NCBI GenBank assembly: GCA_030682655.1
Contig: JAUXNU010000172.1
Coordinates: forward strand, 1-32,249
Direction of reading: 5' to 3'
DNA: 32,249 nucleotides
Source: Actinomycetota bacterium
GTDB lineage: Bacteria; Actinomycetota; Coriobacteriia; Anaerosomatales; JAUXNU01
Under the pieces are notes generated by a model, which worked only from the letters and a program-made list of their open reading frames with translations, was not told where the DNA came from and made no database searches. This document shows positions 26,650-32,249 of this stretch, one piece after another. The first letter of the stretch is position 1. Every line of letters starts with the position of its first letter. A program made the position numbers and the translations under genes.

Positions 26650-27714
26650 CTACTGCGCTGCCATCTGCGCCTGAACGCGGCGGGCGACCAACCCGACAAG
26701 CGGGATGAGCGCGATCGTGATGCCCACGGCAACGGTGAGTTCGACCCACACCTCGCTGATGGAGCCACCCATGATCGACACCTGCCAGATGGGCTCGAGA
26801 ATCCAGTAGAGCGGGAAGAGCTTCGCTATCCATTGCGGCCACTCCGGGAAGATGTAGAAGAGCGTGGGGGCGAACAGGAAGATGCCCAACCCTTTCACCA
26901 TGCCGAACATGATCGTCGAGTCCTTGGCGAACGTGCCGATGAGCAGTCCGATCATCGATGAGAGGCCCGCTGCGACGATCACGACGACGAGCACCTGGAG
27001 CCAGTTCGTCCCGAATGCCTTGTTCAGGGCAAGCGTGGCTGCAGCCAGGACCGTGGCAAGCAAGGTGCCGAGAGCCCATTTCGCGGTGAGAACGTCGGCG
27101 ATCCTGGCGGGCGTCACGAGCATGGCCATGAGCGTGCCCTGCTCCTTCTCCTCGACCAGATTCGAGCCGGGTACGAAGATGCCGGCCATCACGAGAGCGT
27201 AGAACACGATGACCGGCACGAGCCGGACCGAGATAGGCAGACCAGCGGTACCGTAGCTGACCACGTCCACCGTGACGGGCGCAACACTCCCCTCGAGCTC
27301 TCGCACCAGGTCGATCGCCGTGACGCTCAAGATGATGCGATTCGAGGCAAGACTCTCGCCGCCGATGAAGAACTGGAGGTCAGGTCTGTCACCGTTCTTG
27401 ACCGCAGCATCGAACCCGGCGGGAAGAACCAGACCGGCGTCGAGGTCGTTCGCCTCGACCTTGGTCTTGAGTTCCTCGGCATCGTCGAGCAGCGTGAGCG
27501 TGATGCCGTCCATCTTCTCGACCTGCGAGGTGATCTCGGAATTGCCATCGTCCACGATGCCCAACCGCGGCTCGGGGCTGAAGAGCGAACCGAACGTGAC
27601 CTGCAGTATCAGAGTTATGGCGAAGGGAAGAACGATCGCCCACAGGAAGATGGGTGAGCGTGGTCCGAGCGCCAGGTCCTTGCGCAAGACCCTCCATGTG
27701 AGTTTCGGACTCAT
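26650..27714 (-). CDS. ABC-2 type permease
   Basis: The ATG at 27714 overlaps the stop of the first permease (ATGA). The 354-residue product has an N-terminal helix (IFLWAIVLPFAITLILQVTF), then a large extracytoplasmic domain of about 160 residues. Five further helices follow, including the family signature NLVEEKEQGTLMAMLVTPAR after the second. This is the ABC-2/YhaP-NatB type permease layout. Together with the neighbouring permease and ATPase it should form an exporter for a drug, lipid or sodium-type substrate. The substrate is unknown. Confidence 0.88.
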   Translation of the reverse strand: MSPKLTWRVLRKDLALGPRSPIFLWAIVLPFAITLILQVTFGSLFSPEPRLGIVDDGNSEITSQVEKMDGITLTLLDDAEELKTKVEANDLDAGLVLPAGFDAAVKNGDRPDLQFFIGGESLASNRIILSVTAIDLVRELEGSVAPVTVDVVSYGTAGLPISVRLVPVIVFYALVMAGIFVPGSNLVEEKEQGTLMAMLVTPARIADVLTAKWALGTLLATVLAAATLALNKAFGTNWLQVLVVVIVAAGLSSMIGLLIGTFAKDSTIMFGMVKGLGIFLFAPTLFYIFPEWPQWIAKLFPLYWILEPIWQVSIMGGSISEVWVELTVAVGITIALIPLVGLVARRVQAQMAAQ

Positions 27715-28958
27715 AGTGATTCCACCTTCCGCTTCAGCGCGAACAAGCCGGCTCCGAACAGAAGAACCAGCCACGCAGCGGCGTATGCGAGCGACCCTGC
27801 CGAATCGGACCACGTCGCGCCGTAGTTGAACGCACCGACGAGCGTGTTGATGACCGGATACGTGGGAATCGCCTGCACCCACGTCGCCGCTGTGCCGGGG
27901 AACATCACCGAGAACGACGGGATGAGCAGCGGGATCGTGAACAGCATGGAGTAGAAGAGCTGGCCCATGAAGTCCTTGCCCGAGGAGCCCACGAAGAGCG
28001 CCACGCCCGTGAACATCATCGAGCCCATGAGCAACACTGCCAATACGAGCGACCAGTTCTGACCCGTGAGCCCTCCGACCAGCAGGAGGATGAGCAACCC
28101 CTGGCCCAGCGACATCGCGGTGCCGAAGATCGTCTTGGCCAGAAGGAAGTCGCTGATCTTGGCAGGCGTCACGAGCACCGCAGTCACCGTCCGCTGCAGC
28201 ACTTCCGTCGAGACGAGCGATGCCATCGAGAATGTCTCCATCAGCAGCACCATGAAGATGAGCATGGGGCGCAACTTGTCCTTGATGCTGACCTGATCTC
28301 CCGCGCGGTCCGTGCCGAGCACGATCGACTGCTCGTCAGCCATGGTGACCGGAAGCTGCTTGCCCGCCAGCTGATAGGCCGCTTCCCGCACGAAGCTCGT
28401 CATCGCACCCTGGATCTCCTCGGGGACGTTGGCGTCAGAGTAGACAGTCACTGTCACGCCGCTCTTGGCGGCGGCGACATCGGCGATGAAATCCTTCGGG
28501 AATGCTATTCCAATGTCGAGTCCGAGCTTCTCGGCATCTTCCGGCTTGGGATCGTCGATCTCCGTATCGCGCAAGATCAGCGTGCCGTCGTCAGTGCGCC
28601 AGGCCTCAAGCTTGCCCTCGACGACCTTCTGCATGTCGGCCTCATTGTCGAACTCGATGAGAAGCAGGCCCTCCTGCTCCTCGCTCAAGTCCGCCTGGTC
28701 GAGTTCAGCGAGCTGCTCATCGGTGGCGCCCATGGCCTTCAGCGAGTCCTTGGCGTCCTCGATCATCGACGTGACCGGCGGCGAGACGGCGAGTGTGATC
28801 GTCTCGTTGACCTTCGTCGGCAGGAACGTATACATGATCGGTATCACGATCAGCACGAGCAAGGTCAGGAACAGGTATATCTTGTCCCGCGAGTATGCTT
28901 TCAGCTCCTTCTTCAGGAGCGCCCCGACGATCGCGGGGCGTGAGATCGGGCGGCTCAT
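27711..28958 (-). CDS. ABC-2 type permease (NatB-like)
   Basis: The 415-residue product begins KKELKAYSRDKIYLFLTLL, the cytoplasmic start typical of NatB-like permeases. Residues about 50-230 form an extracytoplasmic domain. The C-terminal helices include MVLLMETFSMASLVSTEVLQ, followed by RTVTAVLVTPAKISDFLLAK, the coupling-helix motif. It differs clearly in sequence from its partner at 26650, so the exporter is probably a heterodimer of permeases. The ATG at 28958 overlaps the stop of the ATPase gene by 4 nt, so all four genes of the operon are translationally coupled. Confidence 0.88.
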   Translation of the reverse strand: MSRPISRPAIVGALLKKELKAYSRDKIYLFLTLLVLIVIPIMYTFLPTKVNETITLAVSPPVTSMIEDAKDSLKAMGATDEQLAELDQADLSEEQEGLLLIEFDNEADMQKVVEGKLEAWRTDDGTLILRDTEIDDPKPEDAEKLGLDIGIAFPKDFIADVAAAKSGVTVTVYSDANVPEEIQGAMTSFVREAAYQLAGKQLPVTMADEQSIVLGTDRAGDQVSIKDKLRPMLIFMVLLMETFSMASLVSTEVLQRTVTAVLVTPAKISDFLLAKTIFGTAMSLGQGLLILLLVGGLTGQNWSLVLAVLLMGSMMFTGVALFVGSSGKDFMGQLFYSMLFTIPLLIPSFSVMFPGTAATWVQAIPTYPVINTLVGAFNYGATWSDSAGSLAYAAAWLVLLFGAGLFALKRKVESL

Positions 28959-29818
28959 CCCTCCAGCCCCCTGCCGGTCAGCTCGATGAAGATCGCTTCC
29001 AGCGTGGCCTCCTCGGTATGGATCGTAAGGAGGTCGGGGGACGCCGCGAGTTCCGCAAGCTTGGCCGAGGAGTCATCCCCGGCAAGCGCGATATGCTCTT
29101 CGCGGACTCCATCACCATCGCGCAGACGCACCTTCACGGAGCGGGTCCCGTACTTGAGCTTCAGATTCTCGGCAGTGTCCAGCGCGACGATCTCGCCGTC
29201 ATTGAGAAACGCCACGCGGTCCGACAGCTCATCCGCCTCGAACATATCGTGCGTGGTGAGCAGAACGGCCGCTCCACGCTCCGCCTCCTCCTTGATGGTC
29301 TTGCGAATCGACGCCGAGGTGACCGGGTCTAGTCCGTCGGTCGGCTCATCGAGGAAGAGCACCGTGGGCTTGTTGATGAAGGCGCGGGAGATCATCATGC
29401 GCTGACGCATGCCTTTGGAGAAGCTGTGTACGCGGTCCTTGGCACGATCTGCGAGACCGACGCGGCGCAGAACCTCCATGCTGTCCGCGTCCTTGATGCC
29501 GAAGAGCGACGCGAAGAAGTCCAGGTTCTCAAGCGCGCTCATGTTGAGGTAGAGATTCTTCTCCTCGAAGCACACGCCGATCTTCGCCTGGATCTCCGGA
29601 TCATCCTTGGCGATGTCCTTGCCAAGGATGCGAGCCACCCCGCTCTTGGGCGTGATCTGTCCGGTGAGCATCTTGATAGTCGTAGACTTGCCGGCCCCGT
29701 TCGGGCCGAGGAACCCAAGAATCTCGCCGGGCTGGACATCGAAGCTGACTCCCTTGACCGCTTCGATATCGCCGTAGCTGAACGAGATGTTCTCGACCTG
29801 GATCGCAGGTCCGCTCAT
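28955..29818 (-). CDS. ABC transporter ATP-binding protein
   Basis: The ATG at 29818 overlaps the regulator's stop (ATGA). The 287-residue product has Walker A GFLGPNGAGKSTTIKML near residue 38, the ABC signature HSFSKGMRQRMMISRAF near 131, Walker B PTVLFLDEPTDGLDP near 152, and a switch His in LLTTHDMFEADE near 187. It carries the usual C-terminal extension of export-type (ABC-2 linked) ATPases, ending LEAIFIELTGRGLEG. The signature reads FSKGM rather than LSGGQ, as seen in several NatA/DrrA-like ATPases. Confidence 0.94.
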   Translation of the reverse strand: MSGPAIQVENISFSYGDIEAVKGVSFDVQPGEILGFLGPNGAGKSTTIKMLTGQITPKSGVARILGKDIAKDDPEIQAKIGVCFEEKNLYLNMSALENLDFFASLFGIKDADSMEVLRRVGLADRAKDRVHSFSKGMRQRMMISRAFINKPTVLFLDEPTDGLDPVTSASIRKTIKEEAERGAAVLLTTHDMFEADELSDRVAFLNDGEIVALDTAENLKLKYGTRSVKVRLRDGDGVREEHIALAGDDSSAKLAELAASPDLLTIHTEEATLEAIFIELTGRGLEG

Positions 29819-30288
29819 CGTCGGTCCCCCTTCGTCGTCTTCCACTTCTCAAGCATCTTCCCGTACTCATCTGCCGCGAACGCGTACATATCGCGCACCT
29901 CAAGCAACCGATCTCGCTCCAGCGGCGTCTCCCCCACGAGCGCCAGGCCCTCCTCGGCCAGGTTGCGCATGTCGTCGAGCAGTCCGCGCTTGGCTTCGAA
30001 CCCGCGTTCCCATACGCCCGGACTCATCTCGTACGACAGCTCTCGCGAACCCCGGCGATGCTTCTTGGTGATGAGCCCCACACCGGCGAGAAGTTGCGTC
30101 GCCTGACTGATGGACGCCTTGCTCGCGTGAAGCGCCTCGACAAGCTGTGAAGTCGTCTGTTCAGGTGGGTCGCACACAAGTAGCCATCCCATCACTCGAC
30201 CAGAGGTCCTCGGGAGTCCGCTGTCGGCCATGAGCGCACCGAACTCGTCGACGACGTGCATGAGGGCTTCGTTGTCTCGCCCGGGCAT
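29815..30288 (-). CDS. GbsR/MarR-family transcriptional regulator
   Basis: I chose ATG 30288 (PGRDNEALMHVVDEFGALMA). The open frame continues upstream through the operators and is not coding there. The 157-residue product has the GbsR-type opening GLPRTSGRVMGWLLVCDPPE followed by a winged helix (TTSQLVEALHASKASISQAT, recognition helix ASISQATQLLA) and a wing (GLITKKHRRGSRELSY). Such proteins repress their own operon and release on ligand binding. Here it heads the exporter operon, so it most likely controls it. Confidence 0.87.
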   Translation of the reverse strand: MPGRDNEALMHVVDEFGALMADSGLPRTSGRVMGWLLVCDPPEQTTSQLVEALHASKASISQATQLLAGVGLITKKHRRGSRELSYEMSPGVWERGFEAKRGLLDDMRNLAEEGLALVGETPLERDRLLEVRDMYAFAADEYGKMLEKWKTTKGDRR

Positions 30289-30347
30289 GGTTCGCCTCGC
30301 TCTCAAACATGGAGAAGAACGGGTCGGACAGTCGCATTGGTATTTCC

Positions 30348-30382
30348 AACATTCAGTATGTTCTAAACGTTCCGTATGTCCA
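30348..30382 (-). promoter_or_regulatory. Promoter with two tandem palindromic operators
   Basis: On the minus strand two 15-bp elements of form RACATACnGAAYGTT stand 3 bp apart: GACATACGGAACGTT (30366-30380) and AACATACTGAATGTT (30348-30362). The second has perfect AACAT/ATGTT arms. Centres are 18 bp apart, nearly two helical turns. A sigma-70-like pair, TGGACA (30377-30382) and CATACT (30355-30360) with a 16-bp spacer, is covered by them. A repressor bound here would block transcription of the exporter operon. The regulator's own gene starts 60 bp downstream. Confidence 0.6.
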
Positions 30383-30499
30383 TATGTATCCGAAAGCACA
30401 CGGATTCGTCGCTGACTACTCCTACCCGAGCAGCGGAGCATTCATCGGCTTCGAAATCACCGGGTCGACGGCCTACCATGGGAGTAGGAACTGGCAGCC

Positions 30500-30643
30500 A
30501 TGGTGGAGACCGGCGAGCCATTCTGCGCCGAGTGCGGGAGCGCCTCCCCTGACACTGCGCGGCTCTGCCCGAAGTGCGGTGCCCCGAGGAGCGCCGAAGC
30601 TGTTCTTGTGTCGCGAGGCTGCGGTCGGACAGGTCAGCACTAG
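30500..30643 (+). pseudogene. Double zinc-ribbon protein gene cut by the IS element
   Basis: The ATG at 30500 (GGAGTAGG upstream) opens a frame with two zinc knuckles, CAECGSASPDTARLCPKCG, the pattern of N-terminal zinc-ribbon domains of membrane or sensor proteins. After 47 codons it ends at a TAG whose bases belong to the CTAG at the IS end. The gene was therefore probably longer and was interrupted by insertion of the element. Its remaining part would lie beyond the right edge of the window. Confidence 0.7.
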
Positions 30644-30658
30644 GAGCCTGTCGGGAAA
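30644..30658 (+). repeat. Left terminal inverted repeat of the IS
   Basis: GAGCCTGTCGGGAAA matches the reverse complement of 32231-32245 at all 15 positions; similarity ends after that. Confidence 0.92.
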
Positions 30659-30699
30659 AAGTTGCCGCGCCCTGGCCCAGGTGATGGTGCCCCCGTAGA

Positions 30700-30734
30700 A
30701 TGGTGTCGACGGCGAGACGGAAGGTCGACACCAT
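30700..30734 (+). promoter_or_regulatory. Hairpin over the transposase start codon
   Basis: ATGGTGTCGAC (30700-30710) is the exact complement of GTCGACACCAT (30724-30734), with a 13-nt loop. The downstream arm contains the first two bases of the preferred start codon at 30733, and the ribosome-binding site GGAAGG (30719-30724) lies in the loop and stem base. In a transcript starting outside the element this stem would hide the start. A transcript starting after 30700 would not form it. Confidence 0.6.
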
Positions 30735-32088
30735 GGCCCGAGAGTTCCTGCCCTACGATCCTGACCAGCTCTTCCTCCTTCCCCCGAGCATGCGGGAGTG
30801 GGTGCCCGAGGATCACCTGGTCTGGTTCGTCTCCGATCTGGTGGACTCCCTCGATCTTTCCGGCATCCTCTCCGTCTATGAGAAGAGCGACATGCGGGGC
30901 CGCCCCGGTTACAACCCGGTCATGATGACCAAGCTGCTGGTGTACGCCTACGCGGTCGGCAAGCCCTCCTCCAGGGCGATCGAACGGGCCTGCTTCGAGG
31001 ACATCCCCTTCCGCGTGCTGTCCGCCGACAACCACCCCGACCACACGAGCATCGCCGACTTCCGCAAGGCTCACCTCGCGGCGCTTGCCGGTCTGTTCGT
31101 GGCTGTGCTCGTGCTCTGCAGGCAGGCGGGGCTGGTCAAGCTGGGTCACGTGGCGCTGGACGGCACCAAGGTCAAGGCCGGCGCATCCAAGCACAAGGCC
31201 ATGAGCTACGGTCGCATGTGCACGGCTGAGACCGGCCTCGAAGCCGAGGTCGCCCGCCTGCTCACCGAGGCCGAGACGGTCGACGCCGAGGAGGACGCGC
31301 ACCACGGCCCCGGCCGTCGCGGCGACGAGCTGCCCGTCGAACTCGCCACGCGCGCGAGCCGGCTGGAGAGGATACGCGCGGCCAAGGCGGCCCTGGAGGC
31401 CGAGGCGCGCGAGAAGGCATCAGCCGGGGTCGAGGAGGCGGAGAAGCGAGTAGCCGAGCGTGAGCGCAAGGAGGCCGCACATGGCGGGAGGCTCCCCGGG
31501 CGCCGTCCATCAGTCCCGGACCCCGACGAGGCCAGACCCCGCGACAGGGACCAGCGCAACTTCACCGACCCCGACTCCCGCATCATGGTGGACGGTGCGA
31601 CGGGCTCGTTCGTGGCTGCCTACAACGCGCATGCCGCCGTGGATGAGGACTCGCAGATCATCGTGTGCGCATCGGTGACGCAGCAGGCGAACGACAAGCT
31701 GGCCCTCCTCCCGCTGCTCGAACAGATCGAGGGACACCTCGGCGCACTGCCCAAGCATGCGTCCGCGGACTCGGGGTTCTACAACGAACTCGTCCTGGCT
31801 GATCCGAGGCTCACGGGCGTCGAGTGCTACGTGCCGCCGGAGAGGCGGATACGGACACCGCTCTCAGACACCATGCGTGAGAAGCTCGCCAGCAAGGCCG
31901 GCGAGGCCGTCTACAGGAAACGCAAAGCGATCGTGGAACCGGTATTCGGGCAGATCAAGGAGGGTCGTGGCTTCAGACGCTTCAGCTTCCGGGGACTGAG
32001 AGCCGTGAGTCAGGAGTGGGACCTCATCTGCCTGACCCACAACCTGCTCAAGCTCCACCGGGCCGGGGTGCGTCTGAGCCCCGTCTGA
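30733..32088 (+). CDS. IS1182-family DDE transposase
   Basis: The 451-residue protein begins MAREFLPYDPDQLFLLPPSM, the family's usual opening, so I prefer ATG 30733 to the in-frame ATG at 30700. The N-terminal DUF772-like region (YNPVMMTKLLVYAYAVGKPS) is followed by catalytic residues in VALDGTKVKAGASKHKAM (first Asp), HASADSGFYNELVL (second Asp) and AIVEPVFGQIKEGRGFRRF (Glu). An insertion rich in Glu and Arg (residues about 180-265) lies between the first and second Asp, as in this family. The gene is intact and the terminal repeats are perfect, so the element may still be active. Confidence 0.93.
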   Translation: MAREFLPYDPDQLFLLPPSMREWVPEDHLVWFVSDLVDSLDLSGILSVYEKSDMRGRPGYNPVMMTKLLVYAYAVGKPSSRAIERACFEDIPFRVLSADNHPDHTSIADFRKAHLAALAGLFVAVLVLCRQAGLVKLGHVALDGTKVKAGASKHKAMSYGRMCTAETGLEAEVARLLTEAETVDAEEDAHHGPGRRGDELPVELATRASRLERIRAAKAALEAEAREKASAGVEEAEKRVAERERKEAAHGGRLPGRRPSVPDPDEARPRDRDQRNFTDPDSRIMVDGATGSFVAAYNAHAAVDEDSQIIVCASVTQQANDKLALLPLLEQIEGHLGALPKHASADSGFYNELVLADPRLTGVECYVPPERRIRTPLSDTMREKLASKAGEAVYRKRKAIVEPVFGQIKEGRGFRRFSFRGLRAVSQEWDLICLTHNLLKLHRAGVRLSPV

Positions 32089-32230
32089 CCAGGGCCAGAA
32101 CCCGTCAGCAACGCCGAAGAGACGCCGATGGCGACCTTCCGCGCCGCGAAAGAGCGTCCAGCGCCCGATGTTGCGAGTTCAAGGGCCTTAGAAACGATCG
32201 ACCTCCGTCGGCCACCTGAATCGCAGGCTA

Positions 32231-32245
32231 TTTCCCGACAGGCTC
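32231..32245 (-). repeat. Right terminal inverted repeat of the IS
   Basis: TTTCCCGACAGGCTC is the exact reverse complement of the left end at 30644-30658. It is followed by CTAG, the last four bases of the window. Confidence 0.92.
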
Positions 32246-32249
32246 CTAG

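Follow-up and report, generated by a model that had tools for sequence, protein, structure and literature searches.

Gene organization of the locus

The window, by which we mean the whole stretch of 32,249 nucleotides analyzed here, carries a paired sequence repeat that precedes, on the same strand, the genes of a regulator, an ABC ATPase and two ABC-2 permeases. The genes and the upstream features discussed below are as follows.

26650..27714, minus strand: ABC-2 permease 2 (ABC2_membrane_3, 107.5 bits)
27711..28958, minus strand: ABC-2 permease 1 (ABC2_membrane_3, 70.3 bits), with an ATGA overlap with the ATPase gene
28955..29818, minus strand: ABC exporter ATPase (ABC_tran, 122.7 bits), with an ATGA overlap with the regulator gene
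29815..30288, minus strand: MarR-type regulator of 157 aa, Rv0678/Mj223-like by homology and predicted fold; the start codon is a candidate
30343..30376, minus strand: proposed 34-bp operator, TAC-NN-AACGTTTAG-AACATA-CTGAATGTT-GG-AAA, from columns conserved in the window and 24 relatives of the same order
30348..30362, minus strand: copy 2 of the repeat, AACATACTGAATGTT, an exact match forming the right half of the dyad
30352..30367, minus strand: core dyad TTTAG-N6-CTGAA, half-site centers 11 bp apart, TTCA-N8-TGAA outside the order
30355..30360, minus strand: candidate -10, CATACT, from a promoter-pair search; position not conserved in relatives
30366..30380, minus strand: copy 1 of the repeat, GACATACGGAACGTT, an exact match forming the left half of the dyad
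30377..30382, minus strand: candidate -35, TGGACA, from the same search; position not conserved in relatives

The regulator scored 24.1 bits against Pfam MarR_2 (PF12802; E 4.2e-05), where the gathering cut-off of 27 was not reached, and 26.5 bits against the NCBIfam choline regulator equivalog CudC, where the cut-off of 218 was not reached. Solved structures were matched both by a profile (4nb5, 3.4e-25; 5jbr, 8.5e-15; 1ku9, 1.7e-14) and by the window sequence alone (5.4e-20, 0.00045 and 0.00069, respectively). The entry 4NB5 is Rv0678 (PMC10156607). An AlphaFold2 model of the regulator, with a mean pLDDT of 90.9, predicts, along the full length of the chain, a winged helix and then long C-terminal helices, and the same three entries ranked top in the fold comparison of this model, with 141-149 aligned columns or residues. 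The homology and the predicted fold thus place the regulator in the Rv0678/Mj223/GbsR-like group of the MarR superfamily, with a dimer predicted on the operator. The term "GbsR-type" used in the first-pass annotation is fair in a wide sense, given the match to Mj223, but Rv0678 (MmpR5) is nearer and the CudC cut-off was missed.

Upstream of the repeats, an IS1182-family element occupies 30640-32249, with its transposase at 30700-32088 (NCBIfam IS1182, 354.3 bits) and ends that share CTAGGAGCCTGTCGGGAAA. The contig stops at the right end of this element, and 141-base pieces of 100% identity end the contigs C182 and C24; the IS1182 repeat probably broke the assembly. The start of a divergent zinc-ribbon ORF (MVETGEPFCAECGSAS..., 47 aa) lies at 30500-30643 and looks cut by the insertion, because its stop codon falls in the IS end. 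Longer divergent zinc-ribbon ORFs begin 45-117 bp from the operator in five other loci (L010, L021, L025, L030 and L032), and the operator might serve both the regulator operon and the divergent zinc-ribbon gene.

The paired repeat in the window

The minus strand from 30380 to 30343 reads GACATACGGAACGTTTAGAACATACTGAATGTTGGAAA. The pattern RACATACNGAAYGTT is matched exactly at two places on this strand, 30348-30362 and 30366-30380, with a centre-to-centre spacing of 18 bp, which bears out the earlier description of two RACATACnGAAYGTT copies 18 bp apart. The interval then assigned to the feature, 30348-30382, takes in both repeats but misses a conserved arm at 30343-30347. Across the 2,940,109 bases of the genome, the window pair provides the only exact matches to the 15-bp pattern. 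Up to two mismatches, 18 matches were found versus 12 for a reversed control pattern. The sole match with one mismatch, on contig C11, falls within a 730-aa ORF and was set aside. An exact pair of this kind is very unlikely by chance, while the looser single matches are background.

Conservation within the order

A search for the regulator in 61 genomes of the order, the window's own included, found it in 26, that is, in the window and 25 relatives. The first-pass annotation had staked its proposal on conservation of the motif before orthologous regulator genes, and AACGTT-N12-AACGTT with at most two hexamer mismatches is indeed present upstream of the regulator in 23 of the 25 relatives. The two exceptions, L031 and L034, have four hexamer mismatches each; the L031 site is still recognizable and that of L034 is not. 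L034 is also the most distant regulator match (26% identity), with neither a site nor an ABC gene found, and it was left out of the later counts, which leaves a set of 25 regions (the window and 24 relatives). In this set the paired hexamer occurs in 24 regions under the same threshold, and the conserved columns read approximately TTC-NN-AACGTT-YAGAA-NN-TACTGAACGTT-GG-GAA. The sequence GGGAACG of the outer arm also makes the closer arrangement AACGTT-N3-AACGTT common (20/25). Behind the regulator gene, 24 of the 26 loci, window included, show a Walker-A match; the other two are L011, with a run of unknown bases there, and L034.

The specificity of the site was examined by searching AACGTTYA-N8-TGAACGTT with up to two mismatches in 69 genomes of the order, each place being counted by its better strand. 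All 21 places with zero or one mismatch, most of which had helped define the search pattern, lie directly upstream of the regulator gene, identified by profile search for 17 of them and by coordinates for four (G018, G033, G017 and G002); no near-exact site was found elsewhere than before regulator genes in the 69 genomes. Loci were assigned to 30 pattern places, 22 with the regulator and eight without it (L037, L049, L052, L053, L058, L059, L060 and L062), and the latter all carry two mismatches. Among the eight genomes new to the pattern search (G061-G068), the operator pattern alone led to the regulator gene in five.

Conservation outside the order

Of 396 genomes of the phylum that were searched, 59 carry the regulator, counting that of the window. 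This search gave 73 places besides that of the window, and 49 were examined, leaving out the 23 weakest and a strong second copy (G219:C107). A total of 54 outside regions were compared, comprising 29 loci (L093-L121), 20 fetched stretches, and L065, L066, L067, L072 and L080; L072 and L080 were counted as outside the order on their record titles alone.

TTCA-N8-TGAA is present exactly in 38 of the 54 upstream regions, with a mean of 0.1 after shuffling, and at any of the remaining spacers between 0 and 16 exact TTCA/TGAA pairs occur in no region or in one. Allowing one mismatch, the core is found in 47 regions and missing from seven; spacers 1 and 6 then give 11 each versus shuffle means of 3.3, none near 47. 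Exact cores are distributed over 13 of 18 groups by our own labels, and cores with at most one mismatch over 15. The regions are not all independent, because one family (f30) supplies 18 of the 54 and 17 of the 38 exact cores. The outer arms, which played no part in selecting these regions, are conserved outside the order too, with mostly T, T/A and C at -16.5 to -14.5 and G, A and A at 14.5 to 16.5. Example sites are CTTCATAAAGTTCAGTAGTTAGTGAACGTAATGAAG in L106 and AACTTTCAGCATTGACTGAAAGTG in L067, a record titled Deltaproteobacteria.

Outside the order, 22 of the 29 loci have a Walker-A match after the regulator. Downstream genes were scanned for ten cases, chosen partly for variety, and ABC_tran was found in four. 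The others are an AcrB-type pump part (L120), two LCM-family methyltransferases (L117 and L121), a PPDK_N protein (L116), a MacB/FtsX protein (L065) and a LolA-like protein (L067). Since the type of downstream gene changes while the site stays, the site follows the regulator and not one exporter type.

Two further observations concern individual loci. In L117 and L121, both of family f42, TACGTTTAGTACGTACTGAACGAA precedes the regulator, which is followed by a leucine carboxyl methyltransferase-family gene and no pump. The regulators of L065, L066 and L067, from records titled Chloroflexi, Candidatus Aquidulcis and Deltaproteobacteria, share 41-42% identity with the window regulator, more than homologues of the same order do (26-38%). 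This closeness may denote either a separate sublineage or horizontal transfer.

Geometry of the operator

The first-pass annotation read the two copies as twin 15-bp operators. On this reading there would be two independent sites of 15-16 bp (roughly TWC-NN-AACGTT-NN-GAA) placed 18 bp apart and each bound by one dimer. The same-order data are compatible with such an arrangement, given the paired hexamer in 24 of 25 regions and dyad scores of 0.58 and 0.53 when centered on each hexamer, next to 0.64 for the central 16-bp dyad. Outside the order, however, the hexamer-centered scores fall to 0.35 and 0.37 and the central dyad scores 0.77. Because the alignment of the same-order set was anchored on AACGTT-N12-AACGTT and that of the outside set on TTCA-N8-TGAA (at most one mismatch), each set of centre scores leans to its own anchor, and more weight is given to the unanchored motif counts because the two anchors are different strings. 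These counts are 3 of 54 outside regions for AACGTT-N12-AACGTT with up to two mismatches versus 47 of 54 for the central dyad. The inner dyad pairs do not clearly covary beyond what column composition predicts; at ±3.5, for example, 14 were observed versus 12.5 expected.

The cross-genome comparison thus points to one dyad centered between the two copies in place of twin operators, and we regard two independent sites as improbable. The older unit is most likely a single dyad, TTYAG-N6-CTRAA, with outer arms and half-site centers 11 bp apart. As judged from the aligned regions, the bases beside the core have settled on AACGTT in the window's order, and the paired AACGTT form occurs for the most part only there. 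The halves of the dyad resemble direct repeats because AACGTT is itself a palindrome.

Role of the site

The conservation before orthologous genes supports the claim that the motif belongs to the adjoining regulator gene, and as its predicted operator the site is well supported. It is very improbable that the dyad is bound by another regulator and is merely placed before this operon, as all 21 near-exact sites in the 69 genomes precede this regulator gene and, outside the order, the site persists through the changes of downstream gene type.

A promoter-pair search of 30200-30700 returned a lone promoter-like pair, TGGACA-N16-CATACT, which matches 9 of 12 positions (mean of 0.1 in shuffled sequences) and is overlapped by the repeats. 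A promoter-like pair overlaps the site in 9 of 25 regions (the window and 24 relatives) at varying offsets. The earlier statement that the repeats cover the candidate -35 and -10 of the exporter operon therefore holds for the overlap in the window, but the promoter position varies among relatives, and because it is not conserved the -35/-10 assignment is only a candidate. A sigma-70 promoter at a single fixed offset was rejected on the same numbers, the offsets in the 9 of 25 overlapping regions being different. An ECF-sigma -35 element was also considered for the conserved GGGAA and rejected; inspection of the aligned regions by eye showed no conserved partner hexamer downstream, and these bases match the dyad's outer arm. 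That the conserved bases are mainly a core promoter or mRNA leader element, not an operator, is the least probable reading of all, for although promoter-like hexamers overlap them in the window and, as read by eye, TTGACT-N17-TATAAT overlaps the core GTTCAGTCTTGACTAAAC of L065 (titled Chloroflexi), the dyad symmetry with its fixed 8-base spacing, the lack of a fixed promoter offset and the reach of the arms beyond the promoter hexamers speak against it.

We consider it very probable that the regulator encoded at 29815-30288 has its operator at 30343-30376, where a dimer of it would hold one dyad and the outer arms and repress its own operon until a ligand arrives. From the observed conservation, position and near-uniqueness of the site, together with the homology and predicted fold of the regulator, we infer its binding, dimer state, repression, release by ligand and dimer number as follows. 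The regulator, as an Rv0678/GbsR-like dimer of the MarR type, would bind the dyad TTYAG-N6-CTGAA, whose half-sites are 11 bp, one helical turn, apart, and also touch the outer arms, which lie nine bases farther out. Bound there, it would lie over the promoter region from which its own operon is transcribed and so keep both its own gene and the ABC exporter genes repressed. Release would come from a ligand, probably hydrophobic or drug-like, and the exporter would then be made. One dimer may sit on the core of each 34-bp site, possibly with a second engaged through the outer arms.

Comparison with known regulators

The closest solved structure to the window regulator is Rv0678 (MmpR5) of M. tuberculosis, both by sequence (5.4e-20) and by fold (Foldseek, 30-31% identity; VIA Z 17.5, rmsd 2.7 over 148). 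Rv0678 represses an efflux pump, as the window regulator is predicted to do, but this pump is MmpS5-MmpL5 and that of the window an ABC-2 exporter; it also differs in sharing only about 30% identity with the window regulator and in a site without the AACGTT form. Lipid-like ligands are known for Rv0678.

More sites have been published for this regulator family than the "few defined sites" of the first-pass annotation implied, namely the GbsR operator (PMC7396694) and two sites of CydE (PMC6096048). GbsR, OpcR and OpuAR of Bacillus belong to the MarR superfamily, and Mj223 (1KU9), which the window protein also matches, served as a template for the models of GbsR and OpuAR (PMC6207618). An aromatic cage for choline or glycine betaine is described for the choline regulators of the CudC/GbsR kind in the same work (PMC6207618). 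The Bacillus proteins control osmoprotectant genes, whereas the window operon encodes an ABC exporter. The mutationally defined GbsR operator is reported to lie downstream of the start site and to consist of an A/T-rich inverted repeat whose half-sites are separated by a 4-bp spacer (PMC7396694). As this 4-bp spacer is not obviously the same as in the window dyad, a shared code may fail in Bacillota. Literature searches for an AACGTT palindrome of MarR-type regulators gave nothing resembling the window site among the matches listed, and no paper naming Rv0678 and GbsR together was found in the collection searched.

CydE of Alishewanella, a GbsR-type repressor, has two footprinted sites in its own promoter region (PMC6096048); the one operator proposed for the window regulator would likewise lie in its own promoter region. 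Its site 1, TATTTCAGAAATTTCTGAAAGTTCA, contains TTCAG-N6-CTGAA, with the core and spacing of the window; this likeness was noticed once the motif was known and concerns the sites only, not the proteins. CydE differs in controlling cytochrome bd and in being relieved by sulfate, and its site 2, as published, is dissimilar to the window motif (PMC6096048).

For Rv0678, the -10 box has been suggested within TTTCAGAGTACAGTGAAA, and DNA-binding assays of other studies are cited as indicating the same region (PMC10300004). This promoter region has TTCAG-N6-GTGAA, again the core and spacing of the window. Promoter changes at -30, -11, -9 and -8 are described in strains with raised drug tolerance, though earlier reports conflict on such positions, and in tuberculosis Rv0678 mutations go together with resistance to bedaquiline and clofazimine (PMC10300004).

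The window core TTTAG-N6-CTGAA is one transition away from TTCAG-N6-STGAA, the form common to the Rv0678 region and CydE site 1, which is proposed here as a group feature and is not part of an established definition. The kind of regulator is known, and the main interest apparently lies in this shared operator code. With a little less than even confidence, we suggest that a large part of the Rv0678/GbsR-like group in Actinomycetota, Chloroflexota and Proteobacteria shares one code, TTC-N6-TTCA-N8-TGAA-N6-GAA, its four half-sites suggesting two cooperating dimers. What began as a guess from one window is now a testable operator for a large, thinly studied regulator group, with links to CydE (PMC6096048) and, through Rv0678, to drug resistance in tuberculosis (PMC10300004). 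If the code holds, the targets of many uncharacterized members, perhaps including the Rv0678 regulon, would be predictable from sequence, and a family-wide operator pattern would allow many autoregulated operons to be mapped without species-by-species work.
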